NCBI GenBank assembly: GCA_027483505.1
Contig: JAIXUP010000009.1
Coordinates: 186,001-250,000 of the forward strand
DNA length: 64,000 nucleotides
Direction: 5' to 3'
Origin: Hyphomicrobiales bacterium
Lineage (GTDB): Bacteria > Pseudomonadota > Alphaproteobacteria > Rhizobiales > Beijerinckiaceae
A program made the translations under genes and the position numbers. Each line of letters starts with the position of its first letter. Within the stretch, counting starts at the first letter, position 1. The notes beneath the pieces were generated by a model that saw only the letters and a list, made by a program, of their open reading frames with translations, was not told the DNA's origin and did not search any database. Shown one piece after another: positions 49,538 through 60,982 of the stretch.

Positions 49538-51976
49538 TCAGAACCGCTGCGCGATGGCCGCGACGCCATTCAGCACCGCGCGAGTCAGCGGACGAGGCAG
49601 GCGCTCGGCCACGTCGAGGGCAAGCCCGCGGAACGGCTCAAAGCGGAACACCACAGTTGATCGGCCTGCCGGCACCTGCACGGTCCGGAACAGCACGTTG
49701 CCGCGCAGAAGGGTTTCAGGCTGGCCGTTGACTTCGACGGTCCACCAGCGCTGCCAGGCGTCGTTCAGGACGAGAAAGCCGCATGATGGGGATACGACAT
49801 CCACGGCCACGATGGTGTTGCCGTAGCTGCGGATGGATGCCGAAGCCGCGCCGGGCGCGCCTGCCGCCGCGCACGCGGCCGGGGGCGGAAGCTCGGCGAG
49901 CGCCACCATGCGGCGCGGGTCGAAATCACGCGGCCAGATGCCGGTTGCGATGATCGCCTCGATGTTGGCTTCGCGCGCCTCGGGCACAACGAGAACCCGC
50001 GGCAGGGCAGCGCTGTTCTCATAGATGTAGCCGTCCGACGTCCTGCCGATCAGCCGGAGAACACCTGCAGGCAGCGTACGGTCCACCTCTTCGACCGGCA
50101 CGCGGCTGACAATGAACCGCAGGCCGAGCATATCCGCCAGCAGGGAGCGGTAGCCGGGAAACAGCGGGCTGAAACTGCGCTGGTCGGGCAGCGCGATGTG
50201 ATCGCCGGCGCCGGTGGCGCGCGCATAGTCACCCAGCCGCAGCGGATTGTAGCCCAGCACATGGTCGAAACCGTGGGTCATCGACACGTTCGGCCAGTGA
50301 AAATCAATGCCGAGCAACTCAACGCGGTCGCGCCGGTCCGGGGCTGCGGTCCGGGCGAGCTCGGCCCTGATGCGCGCGATGGTCGGGTTGGCGGTGTCGG
50401 GACGCAGGACGTCATACTGGCTGGTCGGCAGGCCGGTGGACTCGCTCGGGCCGTTGCTGGTCGACAGGTCGACGGCGAGCAAGGCAGCCACGAACAGCGC
50501 TGCGCCGAGTGGCGCGCTGAGCTGCGCCCGGCGCAGGAACCAGAGCATGGCCCCGCTCAGCGCGAACAGGATTGCGGCAGTGACCAGCGGCGACCACGCC
50601 ACCCGGGTCCGACCGAGCAGCAGCGCCAGCCACACTGCCGCAGCGAAAGCCGCAGTGAGCGTGGCCGCGATGGCGAGCCATTGCCAGCGTCGCAACTCCG
50701 GCGAGGTGCGCGTGACCAGCACATGTACGCAATAGCCGGCCAGAATGGCAGCCAGTGCGCCGAAATTGAACAGGGCGTCGGCCGGGCGTCGATAATAGGC
50801 CACGCCCGGCAGGAGTTGAAACAGCGCGCCGAACACGGGCGTGTAGCGACCAAGCGCATAGAACAGCGCCAGCGCCGTCAGGATTGCAATGGCCCTGACA
50901 GGTGGATCCCAGGCGCGGCCGCGCACGATGCCGACGGCCAGGATGGCCAGCAGCGGCAGGGCGCCGAGATAGGCGACGCTCATGTTGCGGGCGAGGTAGA
51001 GGTCGACATTGCCGAAAAAGCTGTTCCAGGCCGGGCTTGGCTGACCCCAGAAATTCTCAAGAGGCCCCGCCGCGCCGAACAGGTTGGCGATGAAGAGGGT
51101 CAGGAGGGAGGCTGGGTGCAGGCTGCCTTTCCCCGCGCCCTCATAGTCGATGGCCGGTCGGTTGGACTGTTCGGCGAGCATCAGCGTGAACAGGATTGGG
51201 ATCGCCGCGGTGAGGACAGCTGCGACGCCGGTCGCGATCAGCGGTCTGAGGCTGTGGCGGATGGCCCGCCAGACAGAGGCCGATTGCAGCCAGGCGGCGA
51301 TGGTGAGGCCCGCCAGCGTGTAGACGCCGATCAGCGCCACCTGATCGCGTCCGAGGATCATCAGGCCGACGAACAGGCCGGCCAGAAGCCCCCAGCGGAT
51401 ACTGCGCCGGCCGATGGCGCGCGACATCAGCCAGAGCGCGATGGCGAAATAGCTCAGGCTCATGACCTGGCCGATGTGCTGGATGCGCCAGGCCGCCGCC
51501 GCGCCGAAGGCGAAGACAAGCGCCGCCGTCACCGCCCCTGCCGGCGCCCAGTCCCGGTCCCGAAAGAGCATGACCAGCGCCAGCGCCCCCGCCAGAAGCG
51601 CGCCGAGCACGACCGCATCGCCGACAAGCGGACCGGGCCGGGGAAAGAGCAGCGCCGCGATCACATGCGGGGGTGAGAACACCAGCGATTGCGGATCCGC
51701 GATCTGCGGATGACCGCCGAAGACATGGGGGTTCCAGAACGGGCTGTCGCCCCGGGCCAGCGAGCCGGCGAGAAACTGGAGCTGCGGCTGGAAATGGGCC
51801 TTGGCGTCCCAGGGGATCGTCAGGGCTCCCGAGAGCCAGGCCCAGTTGAGGGCACCCCAGAACACGCAGACGATGGCGATTGTGGCCAAGGTCCCGGCGC
51901 GGGTCCAGGCCGATGGCTCCGCAGTTGCGTCAGAGTGCTGATCCAGAGCCGATTCCCGAGACATGGCGACGATCAT
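49538..51976 (-). CDS. Large polytopic membrane protein, YfhO/GT-C type
   Basis: The 812-residue product has a dozen or more hydrophobic helices in the first 480 residues and a mixed C-terminal globular part. GT-C-like features include DAKAHFQPQLQFLAGSLARGDSPFWNPHVFGGHP near 57-90. The C-terminal part resembles the YfhO family (VLVLNDAW..WWTVEVNG, then VFRFEPFRG). Such proteins transfer sugars from lipid carriers on the outer face of the membrane. Starts at 51976 or 51964 are both without a ribosome site. It is 60 bp downstream of the RibA paralogue on the same strand. Confidence 0.72.
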   Translation of the reverse strand: MIVAMSRESALDQHSDATAEPSAWTRAGTLATIAIVCVFWGALNWAWLSGALTIPWDAKAHFQPQLQFLAGSLARGDSPFWNPHVFGGHPQIADPQSLVFSPPHVIAALLFPRPGPLVGDAVVLGALLAGALALVMLFRDRDWAPAGAVTAALVFAFGAAAAWRIQHIGQVMSLSYFAIALWLMSRAIGRRSIRWGLLAGLFVGLMILGRDQVALIGVYTLAGLTIAAWLQSASVWRAIRHSLRPLIATGVAAVLTAAIPILFTLMLAEQSNRPAIDYEGAGKGSLHPASLLTLFIANLFGAAGPLENFWGQPSPAWNSFFGNVDLYLARNMSVAYLGALPLLAILAVGIVRGRAWDPPVRAIAILTALALFYALGRYTPVFGALFQLLPGVAYYRRPADALFNFGALAAILAGYCVHVLVTRTSPELRRWQWLAIAATLTAAFAAAVWLALLLGRTRVAWSPLVTAAILFALSGAMLWFLRRAQLSAPLGAALFVAALLAVDLSTSNGPSESTGLPTSQYDVLRPDTANPTIARIRAELARTAAPDRRDRVELLGIDFHWPNVSMTHGFDHVLGYNPLRLGDYARATGAGDHIALPDQRSFSPLFPGYRSLLADMLGLRFIVSRVPVEEVDRTLPAGVLRLIGRTSDGYIYENSAALPRVLVVPEAREANIEAIIATGIWPRDFDPRRMVALAELPPPAACAAAGAPGAASASIRSYGNTIVAVDVVSPSCGFLVLNDAWQRWWTVEVNGQPETLLRGNVLFRTVQVPAGRSTVVFRFEPFRGLALDVAERLPRPLTRAVLNGVAAIAQRF

Positions 51977-52036
51977 AGACGCAAAACAGGGGGCACGTCG
52001 CGCCTGTCCGTGGCAGCAGGCGACCCGATCAAGGCC

Positions 52037-53167
52037 TCAATCGTTGGGCGCGGCGCGCGCCATCAGGGCGTCCATGTCGATGTAGTGGCCGGCCCTGTCG
52101 CGCTTGGACTCCAGATATTGGACATTGTGCTTGTTGGGCCGCCCGAGCACGCGCCGGCTGGCCTGGACCTCAAGGCCGGCATGGCGGATCGCGCCGATCT
52201 TGACCGGGTTGTTGGTCATGGCGACGACGCGCTTCACGCCAAGCTGCTTCAGCATCTCGGCGGCGAAATCGAAGCGGCGCTGGTCGAGGTCAAAACCGAG
52301 TACCTCGTCGGCGTCATAGGTGTCCCAGCCCTCGCTCTGCAGGCGATAGGCGCGCATCTTGTTGGAGAGGCCGTTGCCGCGTCCCTCCTGGTCGAGATAG
52401 AGCAGAATGCCGCCCTCGTTTTCCGCCATCCAGCGCACCGTCTCACGAAGCTGGTCGCCGCAATCGCACTTGAGTGAGCCGAACAGGTCGCCGGTCAGGC
52501 AGGCGGAGTGGATGCGGACGTGCACCGGCTCGTCATAGTTCAGCTTGCCGACAACGATCGCGACCTGGTCGCGCAGGCCTTCGCCGCCGCGGAAGATCAC
52601 GAACTCGGTCTTGGGCGCATCCTCAAGCGGAACGGGCGCGCGCCCGACAATGCTGAGTTCCTCGACCTGCGACTTGCGGAAGCTGTTGATCGCTGTGACC
52701 TCGACGCGCACCAGCGGTTCGTCGGCCACGGAGGCGGGGTCGACCGGCACGATCACCAGCGCGGGAATGATGAGCGAGAGGGCGGCCAGCTCCAGGGCAC
52801 TGATGTCGATGGCGCTGGCGATCGCGATCGGCGCATCGATCCGGCCCTCGACCTTCAGCACCAGCTGTTCGATGCGGGCCATGTCGATGACCGGCAGCGC
52901 CACCGTGCCCGGGACCTTGCGGCCCGTCGCGCCCAGACGGCGGAGGCGGGCCGCCGGCAGCGTCAGGCGCGCCTTGCCGTCTGCAAACGCATTCAGCTTG
53001 TCGACGAAGGCGGCATCGAGCAGTTCGGCAGACACGATCAACGCCGCGCCTTCACCGCCGGTGAGCAGCAAGGGCCGGCCAGAGCGGAGTTCCGAGATGG
53101 CGCGGTCGACCGCCACCTGGTCCTGTCCGCGGTCAAGGCCGAGCATCGAACGCTTGTTCGCCTTCAT
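52037..53167 (-). CDS. ribA: GTP cyclohydrolase II family protein (RibA paralogue)
   Basis: The 376-residue product (ATG 53167; the open frame to 53254 extends through the start of a divergent region) has a C-terminal GTP cyclohydrolase II domain. Zinc Cys residues are at about 223, 234 and 236 (SACLTGDLFGSLKCDCGDQL). Tyr in LLYLDQEGRG and Arg in DQRRFDF correspond to catalytic residues. The loop reads GRGNGL where RibA usually has an aliphatic residue before GL. The first 190 residues form a degenerate domain of DHBP-synthase-like length without its motifs. It is probably a specialised paralogue that serves the neighbouring pathway rather than the riboflavin enzyme. Confidence 0.85.
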   Translation of the reverse strand: MKANKRSMLGLDRGQDQVAVDRAISELRSGRPLLLTGGEGAALIVSAELLDAAFVDKLNAFADGKARLTLPAARLRRLGATGRKVPGTVALPVIDMARIEQLVLKVEGRIDAPIAIASAIDISALELAALSLIIPALVIVPVDPASVADEPLVRVEVTAINSFRKSQVEELSIVGRAPVPLEDAPKTEFVIFRGGEGLRDQVAIVVGKLNYDEPVHVRIHSACLTGDLFGSLKCDCGDQLRETVRWMAENEGGILLYLDQEGRGNGLSNKMRAYRLQSEGWDTYDADEVLGFDLDQRRFDFAAEMLKQLGVKRVVAMTNNPVKIGAIRHAGLEVQASRRVLGRPNKHNVQYLESKRDRAGHYIDMDALMARAAPND

Positions 53168-53341
53168 CAGAGCACCATGCTTTCCGTCAACATATTTCTC
53201 GAACTGCATACGTGGAACCACGGATGGCCAGTTCAAGGAGCGGCACACAAACATCCGGCGCTTGAACCGTGCATGAACATCAGTGCATCATCCGTCGGTT
53301 GGTCGGCGCATCCCGCCGGACCCGGTTTCCAGAAGGTGCTG
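53168..53341. other. Divergent promoter region ribA-cybB
   Basis: This 174-bp gap contains the promoters of the RibA paralogue (minus) and the cytochrome b561 gene (plus). No clear operator or riboswitch was recognised; an FMN riboswitch would be unexpected at this length and none of its conserved core was seen. Confidence 0.4.
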
Positions 53342-53902
53342 ATGATGCAGACCGACTCCGGACCGCCCGCCTACAGCGCGCCGGCGCGCCAGTTCCACTG
53401 GGTGACCGCCGCTTTCGTGTTCGTCATGATCCCCGTGGGCGTGATCATGGCCGAACGTGGCGAGCGCAACATCTGGGACGGCACCACCAACGCGCTGTAT
53501 TCGGGCCACAAGCTCGCCGGTTTCATCCTTCTGTTCGTGCTGATCGCACGCTTAGGCTACCGGTTGGTGAAGGGCGCGCCGCCGGATGAGCCGACGTTGG
53601 CGCCATGGCAGAAGACGGTGTCCCACATCACGCATTGGGCGATCTATGCGGTGCTGTTCGCCCAGATCATGACAGGCTGGGTCGGCGTGTCGCTCTACCC
53701 GGCGCTCGACATTTTTGGGCTGTTCTCTCTGCCGGGCCTGGTCGAGCCCGACGAGGGCGCGGCGGCAAGGGTCCTTTTCGCGCACAAGCTGTTCGGATTT
53801 CTGCTTGTGGCCCTCATCGCAATGCATGTCGGTGCGTCATTGCACCATCACTTCATCCGCAAGGATGGCGTCCTGCGGCGCATGCTGCCGAAAAAGACCT
53901 GA
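53342..53902 (+). CDS. cybB: Cytochrome b561 family protein
   Basis: The 186-residue product has four membrane helices and haem-ligand His residues: ARQFHW near 15-20, SGHKLAGF near 54-61, HWAIYAVL near 101-108, AHKLFGF near 149-155. It is a di-haem integral membrane electron carrier of the bacterial type, proposed to move electrons between quinol and periplasmic acceptors. AGAAGG precedes ATG 53342. It stands alone on the plus strand inside a minus-strand metabolic block. The symbol is by family only. Confidence 0.88.
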   Translation: MMQTDSGPPAYSAPARQFHWVTAAFVFVMIPVGVIMAERGERNIWDGTTNALYSGHKLAGFILLFVLIARLGYRLVKGAPPDEPTLAPWQKTVSHITHWAIYAVLFAQIMTGWVGVSLYPALDIFGLFSLPGLVEPDEGAAARVLFAHKLFGFLLVALIAMHVGASLHHHFIRKDGVLRRMLPKKT

Positions 53903-53910
53903 GGCGACCG

Positions 53911-54747
53911 TCAGGCTGGCCTGGCGAAAAGATCGAGGTGGCCGACAAGGCCCTGCCGGGCAGCCGATTTGGCGGCGAGCCAGCTTGCGATCTCGGCTTC
54001 GGGAACCTTGCCGGTCTCGTGCACGGCGGAGGCGATGCCGCCGGTCAGCGCCGTAACGAGGGCTGCGTCCTCGCCTGTCATCAGCCAAGGGCTTTCGCCG
54101 GTCTCGGCCGTGTAGCCCGCTGTCCGGAAGGCGTCGGCCATCACCATGCAGGCGTCCGGGCCTGCGGCGGGGCCGAACCCCTTGTCCGAGTGCTGGTGCG
54201 CGTGGAAGGCGGCGACCATGGCGGCGTCCGCCGGATGTGGCGGCTGCCAGATCTCGCGGCCGTCATAGGTCAGGACCGTGTAGAGCGGCAGCTTGCGATC
54301 CTTGAGCGCACCGACAAAGCGGCCGATCCAGCGCGGAGAGACGAGGTCGAAAAGCGCTGCAGCCGTCACAAGGTCAGGCCGCCAGTCGAGCACGCGCTCA
54401 AGGTCGGTGTTGAGATCGGCGCGGCGAAAGTCGACCATCAGGCGCTTGCCACCCTTGACGAGCAGCAGTTCTTCCCCGGCTTCGGAGGCCTCGTCGGCCC
54501 AGGCCATCAGCCGTGTGCGGGCGGCGCCGAGCAGCACCGGGTCGTAGTCCACGAGCGTCCAGTGCTGGCTGTCGCCGAAGAGCATATAGGTGCCGCGCAG
54601 GTTCGAGCCGGCGCCGCAGCCCAGGTCCATCACCGCGATATGGTCGGGCGCGCCGAACCAATCGCTGACGCAGGCAGCCAGTTCGCGGTTGACCGAGCGG
54701 TGATCGACCGGCTCGCGCAGGGCCAGCCATTCGGCGGAGAAGCTCAT
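53911..54747 (-). CDS. Class I SAM-dependent methyltransferase
   Basis: The 278-residue product (ATG 54747; a TTG two codons upstream is in frame) has motif I VMDLGCGAGSNLRG near 39-52 and motif II WTLVDYDP near 64-71. LVTAAALFDLVSPRWI near 127-142 occupies the motif IV/post-I region. A C-terminal cap of mixed helices follows. The substrate is unknown. It starts 13 bases after the GT4 gene stop, in an operon with the PTPS homologue and the MDR dehydrogenase, so it may methylate the product of that pathway. Confidence 0.85.
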   Translation of the reverse strand: MSFSAEWLALREPVDHRSVNRELAACVSDWFGAPDHIAVMDLGCGAGSNLRGTYMLFGDSQHWTLVDYDPVLLGAARTRLMAWADEASEAGEELLLVKGGKRLMVDFRRADLNTDLERVLDWRPDLVTAAALFDLVSPRWIGRFVGALKDRKLPLYTVLTYDGREIWQPPHPADAAMVAAFHAHQHSDKGFGPAAGPDACMVMADAFRTAGYTAETGESPWLMTGEDAALVTALTGGIASAVHETGKVPEAEIASWLAAKSAARQGLVGHLDLFARPA

Positions 54748-54760
54748 CGGCAAGGGCCTT

Positions 54761-55813
54761 TCATGGTCGCACCGATTTCAGAACGTCGGCGATGATGCGG
54801 GCTGTGTCCTGCCAGCGGGGAAGGGCGCTGGCGGAGGCCCATGCGGCATCGCCGTGGCGCTGGCGGGCGACCGTGTCGCCGATCAGATAGGCGATCGCTC
54901 CGGACAATTCGCCGGCATCGCCGGGCGGCACCTTCTGTGCGGCGGACTCGGGCAGGGCCGCCGCGCCCGGGCCGGACAGGGTCGTGACGATGGGCAACCC
55001 GCGTGCCAGCGCCTCGGTCAGCACCATGCCGTAGCCTTCGAAATGGGAGGCCATGACGAAGAGGTCGCTGCTGCGGTAGTGTGCGTCCAGCTCGGCTTCG
55101 CTCATCGCGCCCAGCATCGTGATGCGGGTGGCGAGGCCGCGCGCCGCGATCAGGGCGCGCAGGCTGGCGGGATAGGGCGAGGCCTCGTCGCCCGCGCCGA
55201 TGATGGTGAGATGCCAGGGCAGGGCGGCGAGCGGCACGAGCGCCTCGATCAGCACCTCGTAGCCCTTGCGCGGGCTGAGCGAACCGACGGCGAGCAGCTT
55301 CAACGGTTGGCCGAAGGCGGTTTCGCGGGCGCGCTGGCTGGGTTCGACGCCGGGTTCCGCGACCGTGATCCTGGCGGCATCGACGCCGAACTCGCCGACC
55401 AGCAGATCGCGCGTGCCATGGCCGGTGACGATCACGGCGGCGGCATAGCCGAGTGCCGCGCTCTCCAGCCGCTTGAGTTCAGCGGCGCGTGCCGGTGGCG
55501 TGCCCGTCTCAAGGGCCAGCGGATGATGGCAGAGCGCCACCACGCGGCCTGCGAGACCCGCCGCCATCCCGGTCGGGAATGCCCCATAGGCGAGGCCGTC
55601 GATCAGCAAAGGGCTGCGCCAATCCTGCGCCAGAAGCAGCCGGCTGGTCTCGGCGAGGTCCGCGTCGGTGGGCGCCGGGAACGAGCCGGGCAAGGGGACG
55701 TGCACGGGATCGACGCCGAACGCCGGCAGCAGCCGCAGGACATGCCTGTCATAGGCATAGCCGCCGGTCGGGCGGCCCAGATCTCCCGGAATGGCGAAAG
55801 CCGCCGGCGTCAC
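54761..55813 (-). CDS. Glycosyltransferase family 4
   Basis: The 350-residue GT-B protein has an N-terminal acceptor domain starting IPGDLGRPTGGYAYDRHVL near 8-26. The C-terminal GT4 domain contains LLAVGSLSPRKGYEVLIEA near 173-191 and the nucleotide-sugar site ASHFEGYGMVLTEALARGLPIV near 255-276, with the retaining-enzyme E-x7-E pattern. It would add a sugar to an unknown acceptor. Its start overlaps the PTPS homologue stop by 4 bases (ATGA), so the pair is translationally coupled. Confidence 0.88.
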   Translation of the reverse strand: MTPAAFAIPGDLGRPTGGYAYDRHVLRLLPAFGVDPVHVPLPGSFPAPTDADLAETSRLLLAQDWRSPLLIDGLAYGAFPTGMAAGLAGRVVALCHHPLALETGTPPARAAELKRLESAALGYAAAVIVTGHGTRDLLVGEFGVDAARITVAEPGVEPSQRARETAFGQPLKLLAVGSLSPRKGYEVLIEALVPLAALPWHLTIIGAGDEASPYPASLRALIAARGLATRITMLGAMSEAELDAHYRSSDLFVMASHFEGYGMVLTEALARGLPIVTTLSGPGAAALPESAAQKVPPGDAGELSGAIAYLIGDTVARQRHGDAAWASASALPRWQDTARIIADVLKSVRP

Positions 55814-56211
55814 GGCAAGGAAGCCTCATAGGAGGCGCGGGCGAGGTCGGTCTCGTGCAAGGTGACGCGGATCTTGGCCAGGCCCTTGCCATCCTCGCCG
55901 AGCGCGCCCGCCTTCGCCGCCTTGGCGATCTCGTCGAAGATGTGCTTGCAGAGGAATTCGGTGGTGGTGAGGATGCCCTTGAACTGCGGCACCTCGTCGA
56001 GGTTCTGGTACTTCAGCGGCTTCAGCGTCTCGGCCAGCACGTCGAGCGCTGCGCCGATATCGACCACGACGTTCTTGCTGGTCATCTGTTCGCGGAAGAA
56101 GGCGACGTCGACCACGAAAGTCGCGCCATGCATGTTCTGGGCAGGCCCGAAGAACGGATCGGGCAGCGAGTGGCCGATCATGATGCGGTCGCGGACTTCG
56201 ACGGAGAACAT
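55810..56211 (-). CDS. 6-pyruvoyl-tetrahydropterin synthase family protein with altered zinc site
   Basis: The 133-residue product has the T-fold of PTPS/QueD: IGHSL near 12-16, NMHGATF near 26-32, TTTEFL near 82-87 and TLHETD near 117-122. In classical members the zinc is held by His in the first segment and two His in an HGH motif, and a Cys four residues before HGH is catalytic. Here HGH reads HGA and the Cys position is Ala (residue 24), while the two Glu are kept. It therefore probably carries out a different step. The gene lies between the GT4 and MDR genes. Confidence 0.8.
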   Translation of the reverse strand: MFSVEVRDRIMIGHSLPDPFFGPAQNMHGATFVVDVAFFREQMTSKNVVVDIGAALDVLAETLKPLKYQNLDEVPQFKGILTTTEFLCKHIFDEIAKAAKAGALGEDGKGLAKIRVTLHETDLARASYEASLP

Positions 56212-56222
56212 GGCAATTCCTT

Positions 56223-57212
56223 TCAGTAGCTGAGAACGGCAGTAAGCCCCTTCGCGCCGGGCGCGAACAAGGCCGGCAGGCGGGAGGGGGCTTCAGTGAA
56301 GGGGATGTCGTCGGTGATCAGGGCGTCGAGCCGCGCATCGTCCAGAAGCTCCAGCGCCTTGGCCATGCGGCGGCCATAGCTCCAGCGGGCGCGGCGGCTG
56401 TCCGACACATGGCCGACCTGGGATGAGATGAGCCTGAGGCGGCGCGAATGGAACGCCCCGCCGAGCGCGATGGGGGTATCGCCTGCGCCATGCCAGCTCA
56501 ATTCGATGATCGCGCCCTCGAAACCTGCGAGCGCGATGGCCCTGTTGAGGCCTGCCGCGCTGGCAGAGGTATGGAACACGATGTCCGCGTCCTCAGCACC
56601 CGCACCGTCGCTGCTGAAGCGGCAGCCGAGCGACGCGGCGACGCTGGCGCGGGATGTGTCGATGTCGACGATCGTCACGTCCGCACCGGGCAGCCTTGCG
56701 GCCAGCGATGCGACCAGCAGGCCGACCACGCCCGCTCCAACCACCGCGATGCGGTCACCGGGCCCCGCGCTTGAATCCCACAGCGCGTTGAGCGCCGTTT
56801 CCATGTTGGCGGCGAGCACGGCGCGGCGCGGCGGCAGGCTGGCGGGCAGCAGCGTGAGCTGCTCAGGGGGCAGTGCGAAGCGGGCCTGGTGCGGATGCAG
56901 CGCGAACACGCTGCGGCCGATCAGGTCTGCGGGGCCGTCCTCGACCACGCCGACGGCGCAGTAGCCGTACTTGACCGGAAAGGGGAACGCGCCCGCCATG
57001 TTCGGGCCTTTCATCCGTTCGATCTCCGACGCTGGCACGCGGCCTTCGAAGATGAGGCGCTCGGTGCCCCGGCTGACGCCGCTGTAGAGGGTGCGGACCA
57101 ATGCGTGGCCCGGCGACAGGGTGACGATCTCGTCATTCAGGGCGCATTCACGCGCGCCCACATACCAGAGCGCGCGGGTTCCGATCTGGCGAGGGGCCGT
57201 CTCTGTCGTCAA
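56223..57212 (-). CDS. MDR superfamily dehydrogenase
   Basis: The 329-residue medium-chain dehydrogenase has a short N-terminal GroES-like part and a Rossmann domain with VVGAGVVGLLVA near 155-166 and acidic VDIDTSRAS near 178-186. The zinc-site GHE and the structural Cys cluster are absent, so it is a zinc-free MDR or one with an altered metal site. It resembles zinc-binding alcohol dehydrogenases and BchC-like proteins in length. It is the first gene of the operon that includes the PTPS homologue (11 bases downstream), the GT4 and the methyltransferase. Confidence 0.82.
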   Translation of the reverse strand: MTTETAPRQIGTRALWYVGARECALNDEIVTLSPGHALVRTLYSGVSRGTERLIFEGRVPASEIERMKGPNMAGAFPFPVKYGYCAVGVVEDGPADLIGRSVFALHPHQARFALPPEQLTLLPASLPPRRAVLAANMETALNALWDSSAGPGDRIAVVGAGVVGLLVASLAARLPGADVTIVDIDTSRASVAASLGCRFSSDGAGAEDADIVFHTSASAAGLNRAIALAGFEGAIIELSWHGAGDTPIALGGAFHSRRLRLISSQVGHVSDSRRARWSYGRRMAKALELLDDARLDALITDDIPFTEAPSRLPALFAPGAKGLTAVLSY

Positions 57213-57294: not shown

Positions 57295-59121
57295 ATGAAC
57301 CAGCGCCCCGAACCTCAGGACTTCACACCCGAAGCCAATGTGACGTCGGTGCCCGAGCGGAGCGACGGTCTGACGCCGGCGGGCCTGCAGTCCCGGGCGA
57401 TGATGACGCGGCGGCGGCTCACCGTGCTGGTGCTGAATGTCGCTACCTTCGTTGCCCTGATGTGGGGGCTTTCGATCGTTCTCGCCGCCGGCGGCTGGAC
57501 CGTGATCGACGTGATCATCTTCGTGGCCTTTGGCTTCGGCGCGCCGTGGACCGTCCTCGGCTTCTGGAACGCCGTGATCGGGTTGTGGCTGCTGCACGGC
57601 GTCAGGGATGGCGTCGCGCGGGTCGCGCCCTTCGCCGCGGCAGGGCATTCCAACGATCCGATCACGCTGCGCACGGCGATCTTCATGACCCTGCGCAATG
57701 AGGATCCGGGCCGGGCGATCTTCCGCCTCAAGACCGTGAAGCAAAGCGTTGATGCGACGGGTTTTGGCGCGGCCTATGACTATTTCCTCCTGTCCGACAG
57801 CAATGACGAAACGGTGGCGGCGCGCGAGGAACTGCTGGCGCGGGAATGGGCGCGTGAGGTCGGCGATCCGTCCCGCGTGATCTATCGCCGCCGCACCGAC
57901 AACACCGGCTACAAGGCTGGCAATGTGCGCGAGTTCTGCGAGCGTTGGGGCGACCGCTACGAATTGATGCTGCCGCTCGATGCCGACAGCCTGATGTCCG
58001 GCGAGGCAATCATCGCCTACACCCGCATGATGCAGGCGCACCCGAAGCTCGGCATCCTGCAAAGCCTCGTCGTCGGCATGCCCTCGCAAAGCGCCTTCGC
58101 CCGCATCTTCCAGTTCGGCATGCGGCAGGGCATGCGCTCCTACACGATGGGTCAGGCTTGGTGGGTCGGCGACTGCGGTCCGTTCTGGGGCCACAATGCC
58201 TTCGTGCGCATCGCGCCGTTCCGTGACGCCTGCCATCTGCCGGTCCTGCCGGGCGGCCCTCCGCTGGGCGGCCATGTGATGAGCCATGACCAGGTCGAGG
58301 CGACGCTGATGCGCCGCGCCGGCTATGAGGTGCGTGTCCATCCCGAAGAGGGCGGTTCGTGGGAAGAGAACCCGCCGACCATGCTCGAATTCGCCAAGCG
58401 CGACCTGCGCTGGTGCCTCGGCAACCTGCAATACGTGAAGCTGATGGACATTCCGGGCCTCAAGCTGATGAGCCGCTTCCAGCTTGTCTGGGCCATCCTG
58501 ATGTTCGTCGGGCTGCCGGCCTGGACGCTGATGATCGCGCTGTTGCCATTCAAGGTGATCGAGGACAAGGGGCTGGCGTTTTATCCATCCGGTCTCGCCG
58601 CTTTCCTCTATGTGCTGTTCTTCGTGATGTATCTTTCGCCCAAGTTCGCTGGTGCCGCTGATATCCTGCTCACCAAGGGCGGCACGGCGCGCTGGGGCGG
58701 GACGGCGAGGTTCCTCGCGTCCGCCGCGATCGAACTGGTGTTCTCCTTCCTGCAGGGCGCGGTCTCGACATTCCGCACCACGATCTTCATGATCGGGCTC
58801 GCCTTTGGCAAATCGAAGATCGGCTGGAACGGCCAGTCGCGGGATGCGCAGTCGCTCTCGGTGATGACCGCCCTGCAAGGGCTTTGGCCGCACCTGCTGT
58901 TCGGCATCTATGTGATCGGGTCGCTGTGGTACCTCTCGCCACATGTGATGTGGTGGGCGATGCCGCTGCTGGCCGGCTATGTTCTGGCCGTGCCATTCGC
59001 CGTGATCACGGCGTCTCCCGCGCTTGGCCGCTGGTTCCAGAAGTCTGGGCTTTGCGCCATCCCCGAGGATGTCAGCGCGCCGCCGGAAGTCGAAGCCGTG
59101 CTGAAGGCTTCCCGCTCATGA
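57295..59121 (+). CDS. opgH: Glucans biosynthesis glucosyltransferase H
   Basis: The ATG at 57295 (MNQRPEPQDF) gives 608 residues; the frame open from 57091 runs through the MDR promoter region. This family 2 processive glucosyltransferase has two membrane helices near 45-90 and a GT2 domain with YRRRTDNTGYKAGN near 200-213 and the LPLDADSLM DxD-type site near 233-241. VEATLMRRAGYEV follows near 331-343, and several C-terminal helices end the protein. It makes the beta-glucan backbone of osmoregulated periplasmic glucans. It is shorter than E. coli OpgH (about 847), lacking the long N-terminal part. opgG is not adjacent. Confidence 0.93.
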   Translation: MNQRPEPQDFTPEANVTSVPERSDGLTPAGLQSRAMMTRRRLTVLVLNVATFVALMWGLSIVLAAGGWTVIDVIIFVAFGFGAPWTVLGFWNAVIGLWLLHGVRDGVARVAPFAAAGHSNDPITLRTAIFMTLRNEDPGRAIFRLKTVKQSVDATGFGAAYDYFLLSDSNDETVAAREELLAREWAREVGDPSRVIYRRRTDNTGYKAGNVREFCERWGDRYELMLPLDADSLMSGEAIIAYTRMMQAHPKLGILQSLVVGMPSQSAFARIFQFGMRQGMRSYTMGQAWWVGDCGPFWGHNAFVRIAPFRDACHLPVLPGGPPLGGHVMSHDQVEATLMRRAGYEVRVHPEEGGSWEENPPTMLEFAKRDLRWCLGNLQYVKLMDIPGLKLMSRFQLVWAILMFVGLPAWTLMIALLPFKVIEDKGLAFYPSGLAAFLYVLFFVMYLSPKFAGAADILLTKGGTARWGGTARFLASAAIELVFSFLQGAVSTFRTTIFMIGLAFGKSKIGWNGQSRDAQSLSVMTALQGLWPHLLFGIYVIGSLWYLSPHVMWWAMPLLAGYVLAVPFAVITASPALGRWFQKSGLCAIPEDVSAPPEVEAVLKASRS

Positions 59122-59879
59122 ACGCGCGTGTTGCCCTGCCGAAAGGAACGGCGAAATCGCTGCATCGCTCATTGCGCGTCTACCATGGCGACAAGAGCCG
59201 CCAGCCCGCGATGGATGCGATGTATGCGCGCTTCGTGAAGCCCGGCCAGCTCGCCTTCGACATCGGCAGCCATGTGGGGGACCGCATCTCGTCCTTCCGG
59301 CGGCTTGGCGCGAAGGTCGTGGCGCTGGAGCCGCAGCCCGGCTGTGCGCGCGCCATCCGGCTGATCCATGGCCGTGATGTCAACGTCACGCTGGTGCAGG
59401 CCGCTTGCGGCAAGGTGGCCGGCGAGGTTGTGCTGAAGGTCAACTCAGCCAACCCGACCGTGTCGACCGCCTCCGATGACTTCGTCAAGGCCGCTGCGGG
59501 CGCGGGGGGCTGGGAAACCCAGGTCTGGGATCATGCCATCACCGTGCCTTGCGTGACGCTGGACGGGCTGATCGCCGTCCATGGTGTGCCGGCCTTCATC
59601 AAGGTGGATGTCGAGGGTTTCGAGCTTGCCGTGCTGGAGGGACTGTCGACGCCTGTCGCCGCGCTGTCCTTCGAGTTCACCACGATCCAGCGCGATGTTG
59701 CCTATGCCTGCATCGAATGCCTGCAGGATCTCGGCGACTATCGCTTCGATCTCGCGCTTGGCGAAAGCCAGGAGATGGAATTTGACAAGGCGATCAGCGC
59801 TGACGAGATGATCCTGCACATCCAGTCCTTGCCGCATGACGCGAACTCGGGCGATGTCTATGCGGTGTTGCAGACGTAG
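59118..59879 (+). CDS. FkbM family methyltransferase
   Basis: The 253-residue product overlaps opgH by 4 bases (ATGA). FkbM motifs: LAFDIGSHVGDRISSF near 45-60, VVALEPQPGCARAI near 66-79 and PAFIKVDVEGFELAVLEGL near 159-177. It lacks a signal sequence, so it acts in the cytoplasm. Coupling to opgH suggests that it O-methylates a glucan precursor or a sugar donor, a decoration not described for this glucan class to my knowledge. It is the second FkbM gene in the window and is not a close copy of the one at 29.5 kb. Confidence 0.85.
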   Translation: MNARVALPKGTAKSLHRSLRVYHGDKSRQPAMDAMYARFVKPGQLAFDIGSHVGDRISSFRRLGAKVVALEPQPGCARAIRLIHGRDVNVTLVQAACGKVAGEVVLKVNSANPTVSTASDDFVKAAAGAGGWETQVWDHAITVPCVTLDGLIAVHGVPAFIKVDVEGFELAVLEGLSTPVAALSFEFTTIQRDVAYACIECLQDLGDYRFDLALGESQEMEFDKAISADEMILHIQSLPHDANSGDVYAVLQT

Positions 59880-60004
59880 TTCGCTTGCGATGTCATCCTT
59901 CGGCGGGCTCGGGATGAGGATCCGTGGGCTCGGCCAACCAGCAATCCTCATGGTGAGCCTGTCGAACCATGAGTTCCAGTTCGCACAGTAAAGAGGTCAT
60001 CCAT
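59880..60004 (+). repeat. Dispersed-repeat-like hairpins between FkbM and the periplasmic protein gene
   Basis: TCATGGT (59948-59954) and ACCATGA (59966-59972) flank GAGCCTGTCGA. This is the common alphaproteobacterial intergenic repeat with a TCGACAGGCTCACCATGA-like core (seen on the minus strand). Just upstream, TCATCC (59894-59899) and GGATGA (59912-59917) form a second, smaller stem. The pair lies in the 125-bp gap inside an otherwise tight operon. Confidence 0.65.
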
Positions 60005-60982
60005 ATGCTCCGCATCACCGCCACCCTCGCCGCCATCGCCTTCAGCGCCTCGGCCTTCGCGGCCTCGCTCGATGCCGTGCCGGTGACGGTGATCAACGAG
60101 TCCGAGCCGGTGTTGTGCGCGGAGAAGGACAACATCACCATCAAGACCATTTCGCCTGAAGTCCGGCGCTTCCGCATCGAGGCGGCGCATCCGCCCTATA
60201 TCGGCGGGCTGGTGAAGGACAATTGGGAGGCCGACTGGACCGCCTGCGACATGACCGGCGATCCCGTGTTCGCCGCGCCGGTGCCGCCGCGCCGGATCAC
60301 CTTCTACGAGAGCATCGAGTACTGGCTTGTGGGCTACACCTTCCCGACCTTCTGGCGCCCTGCCGACACCACGTTCCGGGTCGGTGACCGGGTCGAGAAG
60401 GGCCTGCATCTCGTGCAGCTGTGGAAGCTCGGCAAGGACAAGTCGTATGAGGTGCTGGTGGTCTATCCGCAGGATGGCTACTGGCGCGCGCGTCCGATGC
60501 CGCCGGCGCATCTCAGATTCAACGCCTATGGCTCGTCCTTCCTGTTCGGACCCGTCGAGCAGGAGGGCCGTCCTGTGGTGAACATCAGCGAGATCGTCTT
60601 TGATCCGAAGACGCTCGAATTCAAGATGACGTTCAAGGATGGCAATTCCGGCTCCCTGAAGCTGGAGAGCGTCGACGAGAACCGCATGGTGCTCGACGCG
60701 GTGCTCGACAAGCCGGTGACTGGCGGCAAGGCTTTCGCCGCGCTTCGCTCGATGTACGTCACCGATTTCAACAATGACGTGTCGCGCGTCGCCGTCCGCG
60801 AGCCCGGCGCAAGGCGCTGGCGCGAGGAGCACATCCTCGACTTCACCAAGGCGCAGGCCACGGATGTGTGGATGGGGCGGCTGACCCATTCGCAGCACAA
60901 CACCTCCTCGCCGGACCACGTCTTCAAGGGCTTCACGAAGGACCCCGTTCGCCCCGAGGTGGCAGCCCCGAAGAAGCCCTGA
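60005..60982 (+). CDS. Periplasmic protein of unknown function
   Basis: AAAGAGG precedes ATG 60005; the 325-residue product begins with a signal peptide (MLRITATLAAIAFSASAFAA, cut near residue 20). The mature protein is mostly beta-predicted, with one short Cys pair (VLCAEKD near 35 and TACDMTG near 80) that could form a disulfide. No family is recognised. It is adjacent to opgH-FkbM and overlaps the glucokinase gene by one base (TGATG), so a role in periplasmic glucan handling is an inference from context. It is not OpgG, which is longer and has a known fold. Confidence 0.75.
   Translation: MLRITATLAAIAFSASAFAASLDAVPVTVINESEPVLCAEKDNITIKTISPEVRRFRIEAAHPPYIGGLVKDNWEADWTACDMTGDPVFAAPVPPRRITFYESIEYWLVGYTFPTFWRPADTTFRVGDRVEKGLHLVQLWKLGKDKSYEVLVVYPQDGYWRARPMPPAHLRFNAYGSSFLFGPVEQEGRPVVNISEIVFDPKTLEFKMTFKDGNSGSLKLESVDENRMVLDAVLDKPVTGGKAFAALRSMYVTDFNNDVSRVAVREPGARRWREEHILDFTKAQATDVWMGRLTHSQHNTSSPDHVFKGFTKDPVRPEVAAPKKP

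Follow-up and report, generated by a model that had tools for sequence, protein, structure and literature searches.

What compound could be made by an alphaproteobacterial operon for an MDR dehydrogenase, a PTPS-fold protein, a GT4 glycosyltransferase and a methyltransferase, with a GTP cyclohydrolase II (RibA) encoded nearby? These genes lie at positions 49538 to 57212 of a 64,000-nucleotide stretch (the window) of a Hyphomicrobiales bacterium (assembly GCA_027483505.1, contig JAIXUP010000009.1, positions 186,001 to 250,000). The original prediction, made from the window's letters and open reading frames, was that they build a glycosylated, methylated pterin- or pyrimidine-derived compound. 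Here, we confirm the observation behind that prediction and find its interpretation supported in part. We hold with moderate confidence that the operon and RibA form a biosynthetic pathway of their own, which branches from riboflavin synthesis at its first intermediate. There is good support for a tie of the cluster to the product of GTP cyclohydrolase II, and the cluster's own product appears to be a sugar- and methyl-decorated pyrimidine or pterin, maybe attached to a membrane. A RibD_C reductase and the membrane-lipid genes of relatives, which bear on this reading, lie outside the window and were not visible from its sequence alone.

The block contains the following genes:

56223 to 57212, minus strand: MDR dehydrogenase, BchC-like, operon gene 1 (family models)
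55810 to 56211, minus strand: PTPS-IV protein (FGPAQ..HGA), ortholog of SCO6650 / PDB 3d7j (family models, motif, alignment)
54761 to 55813, minus strand: GT4 glycosyltransferase (family models)
53911 to 54753, minus strand: class I S-adenosylmethionine-dependent methyltransferase, ATG start possible at 54747 (family models, AlphaFold2, Foldseek)
53342 to 53902, plus strand: cytochrome b561 (PF01292), likely start at 53342 (Pfam)
52037 to 53254, minus strand: RibA, GTP cyclohydrolase II with a 200-residue N-terminal part (family models, alignment)
49538 to 51976, minus strand: YfhO/PMT-like membrane protein (family models)

All six minus-strand open reading frames are open at these coordinates. 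The first four genes form one operon as predicted, with the reading frames, gaps and families described; PTPS and GT4 overlap by 4 bases, and the remaining gaps are 11 and 7 bases. RibA and the membrane protein (predicted as GT-C-like) have the positions and families first given, although they do not simply come next on the strand: the plus-strand cytochrome b561 gene sits between the methyltransferase and RibA genes, and because of this separation RibA stands outside the four-gene operon. A promoter and terminator scan gave nothing convincing (promoter-like sequences, 2 versus 0.9 expected; terminator-like sequences, 5 versus 4.7 expected).

The PTPS protein, the sole PF01242 place found in the window genome, has its closest solved structure in Streptomyces coelicolor SCO6650 (PDB 3d7j; E 4.6e-39), and the window shares with SCO6650-type loci both this ortholog and the MDR-PTPS-GT4-methyltransferase order. 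The 3d7j structure paper reportedly found neither zinc nor PTPS activity in SCO6650. Residues 21 to 25 of the window protein read FGPAQ, which identifies it as PTPS-IV by the signature defined in a passage of PMC5445326; the motifs CxxxHGH, CxxxxxHGH and ExxHGH, given in part of PMC5041015 as marks of characterized PTPS groups, are absent from it. Across 25 aligned sequences, H14, F21 to Q25, H28-G29-A30, D51, D72, E85, E120 and E129 are invariant, the second His of HGH is replaced by Ala, and the motif Cys is gone. The usual catalytic motif is thus lost, which speaks against the ordinary PTPS chemistry originally assumed. Among 156 matched loci, 144 carry FGPAQ..HGA/G, 9 carry FGPAxxxHGH, and 3 carry other motifs. 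Automatic annotation as 6-carboxytetrahydropterin synthase would make the protein an enzyme of queuosine (QueD), biopterin or folate synthesis, which we regard as hardly credible: the QueD model scores 33.4 bits versus a cut-off of 89.25, and the characterized motifs are missing. QueD/PTPS-I identity was accordingly rejected (no Cys, and HGA rather than HGH), as were biopterin PTPS-II and folate PTPS-III identity (CxxxxxHGH and ExxHGH both absent). On two Streptomyces plasmid loci (L079 and L083), PTPS-IV is solitary, with MDR, GT4 and methyltransferase not found in the stretch; the L079 protein reads FGSAQ where others read FGPAQ.

Conservation was assessed in a sample of 199 genomes of the order (PTPS match threshold, E 0.001). 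PTPS matches were found in 56 genomes; two (G122 and G151) were set aside for a weak match with a CYRLHGH motif (loci L073 and L072), leaving 54 genomes with PTPS-IV. From 57 PTPS places in the order, 40 were fetched as stretches of 8 to 18 kb, and 38 of these are PTPS-IV. MDR and GT4 each lie near 37 of the 38 loci and the methyltransferase near 33, because of which the four-gene arrangement is far beyond chance; neighborhood conservation had been set as a check beforehand, and the prediction passed it. MdoH follows with 29 loci, RibD_C with 25, cytochrome b561 with 21, RibA of any strength with 18, and YfhO with 3. None of these partners accompanies L045, one of the 38, which is a second PTPS copy. 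The YfhO-like protein, predicted as part of the block, is therefore no general member: in a wider set of 128 loci (some genomes counted twice), 18 have it, usually behind RibA, and its recurrence is confined to near relatives such as Bosea and Beijerinckiaceae.

Two genes of early riboflavin chemistry track PTPS-IV across these genomes. Stand-alone RibD_C (E<1e-50) occurs in 41 of the 199, of which 40 hold PTPS-IV and the single other one (G123) is 56% complete; its genomes spread over 24 genera, every one of which also has a genome with PTPS-IV. Within one genus (g39), two genomes (G171 and G194) have both genes and three (G035, G112 and G143) have neither. Window-type RibA (E<1e-45) occurs in 36 genomes, 30 of them with PTPS-IV. 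Fisher p values for co-occurrence with PTPS-IV, uncorrected for relatedness, are 7e-29 for RibD_C and 3e-15 for RibA. The cluster RibD_C carries no deaminase domain (Pfam), and its profile matches PDB entry 6p8c best (3.7e-41; named diaminopyrimidine reductase), followed by 2azn (2.1e-38; named uracil reductase) and 8dq9 (2.2e-33; named dehydroquinate dehydratase), with RibD-named entries starting at 4.1e-32. Entry 2azn is the Methanocaldococcus enzyme that acts on the diamino substrate.

Window RibA scores above the cut-off of the equivalog model NF006456 (478.1 versus 464 bits) and, aligned to 2bz0, has the full three-Cys zinc motif CLTGDLFGSLKCDC, RAY, and the catalytic Tyr at the position of E. 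coli Tyr105. From its family membership, it would act as GTP cyclohydrolase II and give the diaminopyrimidine and formate. The window genome has three PF00925 places: this RibA, a RibB-RibA fusion and an NF005536 protein beside DUF1688, the last presumably of the uracil degradation type. The fusion has a degenerate RibA half, with no three-Cys zinc motif by eye and 390.7 bits versus 569 for NF006803. The search for another complete RibA thus yielded two more PF00925 genes, neither of which combines a full zinc motif with a RibA-model score.

Because window RibA is the sole PF00925 gene of its genome with both properties, a role in riboflavin synthesis is favored, and the gene may simply be the cell's riboflavin enzyme, its position incidental or coregulatory, with the operon acting on some other substrate, such as the dihydroneopterin triphosphate of FolE. 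FolE is present, RibBX, RibD and (by eye) RibH are located elsewhere in the genome, a plus-strand gene separates RibA from the operon, and 6 of the 36 genomes with window-type RibA have no PTPS-IV. We nevertheless judge this account unlikely. At an actinobacterial locus (L189), RibA and RibD_C share a strand block with the MDR, PTPS, GT4 and methyltransferase genes; RibD_C, a RibD paralog, keeps company with PTPS-IV as counted above; and 138 of the 199 order genomes have no match to window RibA at E 1e-20. That last count, the high abundance of homologs of the formamidase of riboflavin synthesis in Rhizobiales (reported in part of PMC9478397) and six creatininase-family places in the window genome together count against a riboflavin role. 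Neither ribB, the ribD deaminase, ribE nor ribH was found among the operon genes and scanned neighbors, so the locus does not read as a riboflavin gene cluster. A dual role of window RibA, in riboflavin synthesis and in the cluster, is possible. The RibB-RibA fusion (contig C16, L002:1483-2820) has a weak N-terminal helix-turn-helix match (PF13560, 24.6 bits versus a cut-off of 27).

The residue at the Tyr105 position divides the RibA proteins near PTPS: among 64 loci with a RibA match (some genomes present twice), it is Tyr in 56, Met in 6 and Leu in 2. Creatininase is encoded in the same stretch for all six Met forms, all actinobacterial, versus 3 of the 56 Tyr forms. The Met-form protein SCO6655 reportedly goes no further than the formylated pyrimidine. 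Part of PMC9478397 describes how such a formyl group is removed by Sinorhizobium BrbF, a protein originally annotated as a creatininase. If the SCO6655 result applies, this would mean that Met-RibA with creatininase and Tyr-RibA are two routes to the same diaminopyrimidine.

The joining of GTP cyclohydrolase II with PTPS, MDR, GT4 and methyltransferase in one conserved pathway, as predicted, is borne out in several proteobacterial lineages as well as in Actinomycetota. In a scan of named species, the best 80 of 588 relatives include Bosea, Ancylobacter, Hyphomicrobium, Xanthobacter, Paracoccus, Palleronia, Azospirillum, Polynucleobacter, Pseudohaliea and Aquiluna; an even phylum sample gave PTPS matches in 19 of 299 genomes. 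Six distant proteobacterial loci (L165 to L170) all carry MDR, PTPS, GT4, methyltransferase, a CDP-alcohol phosphatidyltransferase and an LPG_synthase_TM flippase-like gene together, and five have RibD_C, the stretch of L168 ending at a contig edge. In the phylum of Aquiluna (locus L139), 24 of 296 genomes match at E 1e-15, nine of them strongly (E<1e-28). Seven of these nine were fetched. Six of the resulting loci (L176 to L181), termed Streptomyces-like for their likeness to L075, each hold the phosphatidyltransferase, MDR, PTPS, GT4, methyltransferase, flippase-like gene and RibA, with creatininase in five; the seventh (L182) has MDR, PTPS and GT4 only. A second form appears among the 15 weaker actinobacterial genomes, where all nine fetched loci (L183 to L191) have RibD_C-MDR-PTPS-GT4 in a row. 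Its PTPS reads FGPAxxxHGH, with HGH kept and the motif Cys absent, and is possibly an ancestral, zinc-using version. RibA was detected in one of these nine loci, L189, whose RibA, RibD_C, MDR, PTPS, GT4 and methyltransferase genes are codirectional with overlapping ends or gaps of ≤29 bases (Pfam); FolB and an acyltransferase are on the opposite strand.

The CDP-alcohol phosphatidyltransferases keep their catalytic residues invariant in 12 sequences, and sulfatase-family and acyltransferase genes are also among the cluster's neighbors in relatives. Together with the flippase-like gene, these neighbors point to lipid linkage of all or part of the product in many lineages. No phosphatidyltransferase or flippase-like gene was seen among the genes scanned beside the window operon. 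Such neighbors also invite the account that the operon serves the synthesis or decoration of an envelope glycan or lipid, where PTPS-IV and MDR would have a sugar or polyol, not a pyrimidine, as substrate. Membrane and glycan genes (MdoH, FkbM, GT4, the phosphatidyltransferase, flippase and sulfatase) are frequent neighbors, PTPS-IV lacks the PTPS catalytic motif, and the MDR profile is closest to alcohol and polyol dehydrogenases. The best NCBIfam match of this MDR is TIGR01202 (bchC; 42.9 bits versus a cut-off of 291), a weak likeness to BchC; no cysteine is found among the invariant or 90% columns of 16 aligned sequences, and the zinc ligands of zinc-dependent MDR are not seen there. The envelope account offers no reason why RibA, RibD_C and creatininase are tied to the cluster in two phyla, and we consider it quite improbable.

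The branch that we prefer can be laid out in steps, with families as assigned and all substrates putative. RibA would convert GTP to 2,5-diamino-6-ribosylamino-4(3H)-pyrimidinone 5'-phosphate, as expected of its family. In most relatives, stand-alone RibD_C would reduce the ribosyl to a ribityl side chain and, having no deaminase domain, would leave the 2-amino group in place. MDR may oxidize a side-chain hydroxyl. PTPS-IV, which has the T-fold without the PTPS catalytic set, may bind the pyrimidine or pterin and carry out a ring closure, a rearrangement or a side-chain change. GT4 would then add a sugar and the methyltransferase a methyl group, according to the chemistry of their families; the AlphaFold2 model of the methyltransferase (pLDDT 96.6) leads Foldseek to generic class I methyltransferases. 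Outside the window lineage, the phosphatidyltransferase and flippase-like protein might attach the product to a membrane lipid and export it.

The main gap in the window organism is the missing stand-alone RibD_C: the sole PF01872 protein found in its genome is a bifunctional RibD with a deaminase domain (425 amino acids, PF00383 and PF01872, on another contig), and therefore either this enzyme, or no reduction, would serve at that step. Several further observations weigh against the proposed branch. Kinship among genomes inflates the Fisher p values, and RibA was not found near 20 of the 38 PTPS-IV loci of the order. Along with the window genome, 13 of the 53 other PTPS-IV genomes of the order have no RibD_C at E 1e-50 (one of the genomes in this group, G083, has a PTPS fragment only), and RibD_C lies near just one of the six Streptomyces-like loci, where it is weak (84 bits), a count made in the fetched stretches. 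Other named diaminopyrimidine reductases score below RibD against the RibD_C profile (1.8e-17 and weaker). The RibD_C of L153 scores 136.9 with the RibD C-terminal model, 112.8 with RibD and 104.8 with the archaeal reductase; all are under the cut-off, and the NCBIfam models do not discriminate between the two substrates. Roseibium hamelinense (G481, L145) has the MDR-PTPS-GT4-methyltransferase set and a single PF00925 gene, RibBX-like by length and score. Finally, three proteobacterial Tyr-form RibA genes also have a creatininase nearby, which weakens the idea of two routes.

A more specific version of the product can be drawn, though we give it little credence: a membrane-anchored, flavin- or pterin-like redox glycolipid made via the ribitylated diaminopyrimidine. 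MDR would oxidize the C2' hydroxyl, so that reduction and oxidation together mimic the Amadori step of GTP cyclohydrolase I; closure of the pterin ring would fall to PTPS-IV. GT4 and methyltransferases would decorate it, the phosphatidyltransferase would couple it to lipid, the flippase-like protein would export it, and cytochrome b561 would exchange electrons with it. If true, a pterin would here be made by way of GTP cyclohydrolase II, and the product would represent a new class of lipid-linked cofactor.

Three other roles were considered. Precursors of cofactor F420 share the ribitylamino-pyrimidine route. Service of PTPS-IV to F420, raised for archaea by an unpublished remark within PMC5041015, is very improbable: CofD (TIGR01819) has no match in the window genome at E 1e-5, and just 11 of the 40 genomes with the cluster that were tested score over its cut-off, so that the role is contradicted for the window genome unless F420 is made without CofD. 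Replacement of FolE as the folate source was entertained since RibA, RibD_C, MDR and PTPS might together do the work of GTP cyclohydrolase I, and since FolB lies beside L189; it was rejected because FolE (PF01227) is found in 22 of 23 genomes tested, including the window genome, with no match in G755. Anti-phage defense was rejected as well; among the six window proteins, there was one weak match, of the methyltransferase (mad2, 22.3 bits). Phage records gave zero PTPS matches.

Part of this picture was noticed before. PTPS-IV is already named, and AGeNNT cluster-node 62, which is PTPS-IV (561 sequences), is described in passages of PMC5445326 with PF00925 and PF01872 neighbors; the window protein has its FGPAQ signature, with RibA near the operon and stand-alone RibD_C not found in the genome, while the passages on this node do not name MDR, GT4, methyltransferase or CDP-alcohol phosphatidyltransferase. 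PF00925 is labeled there as GTP cyclohydrolase I / FolE2, contrary to Pfam, which defines it as GTP cyclohydrolase II, and the gene set corrects the label to RibA. Beyond PMC5445326 and PMC5041015, the literature found describes neither the product nor this gene set, and as far as this search reaches, the statement that no characterized pathway has it stands. The start of riboflavin synthesis (RibA, RibD, diaminopyrimidine reductase and BrbF, in part of PMC9478397) uses families common to the cluster, and the same first chemistry is expected. Riboflavin synthesis differs in having no place for PTPS-IV, MDR, GT4 and methyltransferase, and the cluster reductase has no deaminase domain. Pteridine glycosides such as cyanopterin have a biopterin core made via FolE, whereas the cluster encodes RibA and RibD_C. 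Among known types of product, a pterin bearing a sugar comes closest (Chlorobium pteridine glycosyltransferase, in part of PMC5683033, and cyanopterin). The Streptomyces fungicidicus plasmid locus L075 and L177 to L181 combine CDP-alcohol phosphatidyltransferase, MDR, PTPS, GT4, methyltransferase, flippase-like gene, creatininase and RibA. Such Streptomyces-type loci pair a Met-form RibA with a creatininase neighbor, whereas the window has the Tyr form and no creatininase was found nearby; MdoH and cytochrome b561 stand in the window where these loci have the phosphatidyltransferase and flippase.

A block conserved in Alpha-, Beta- and Gammaproteobacteria and Actinomycetota thus apparently takes the first riboflavin intermediate as its starting point. 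The structure of PTPS-IV is solved but its function is not settled, and the gene set offers concrete candidate substrates. The pathway may be the reason that a second RibD-type reductase persists in some bacteria, and a lipid-linked product would be an unexpected redox lipid.

Three plus-strand genes lie on the other side of the operon:

57370 to 59121, plus strand: MdoH-type glucosyltransferase, divergent neighbor (family models)
58884 to 59879, plus strand: FkbM-family methyltransferase (similarity to L134:6101-7036, PF05050)
59969 to 60982, plus strand: conserved protein without an assigned family, beside FkbM and MdoH

In Hyphomicrobiales, MdoH holds the place adjoining the operon and is probably a lineage neighbor; cytochrome b561 is a frequent neighbor in the order and may be functionally linked to the cluster. 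The third protein had no Pfam or NCBIfam hits, and its AlphaFold2 model (pLDDT 78.5) no PDB fold match at E 0.001; its family occurs in 31 of the 128 loci of the wider set. On two Rhodobacterales plasmids (L080 and L081), PTPS is not directly followed by GT4, and a ribokinase (by annotation) or PfkB-type kinase lies nearby; L081 has an inositol-monophosphatase-family gene and GT4 further upstream. The 5' part of the FkbM open reading frame overlaps MdoH, and other lineages also have FkbM genes close to the cluster.

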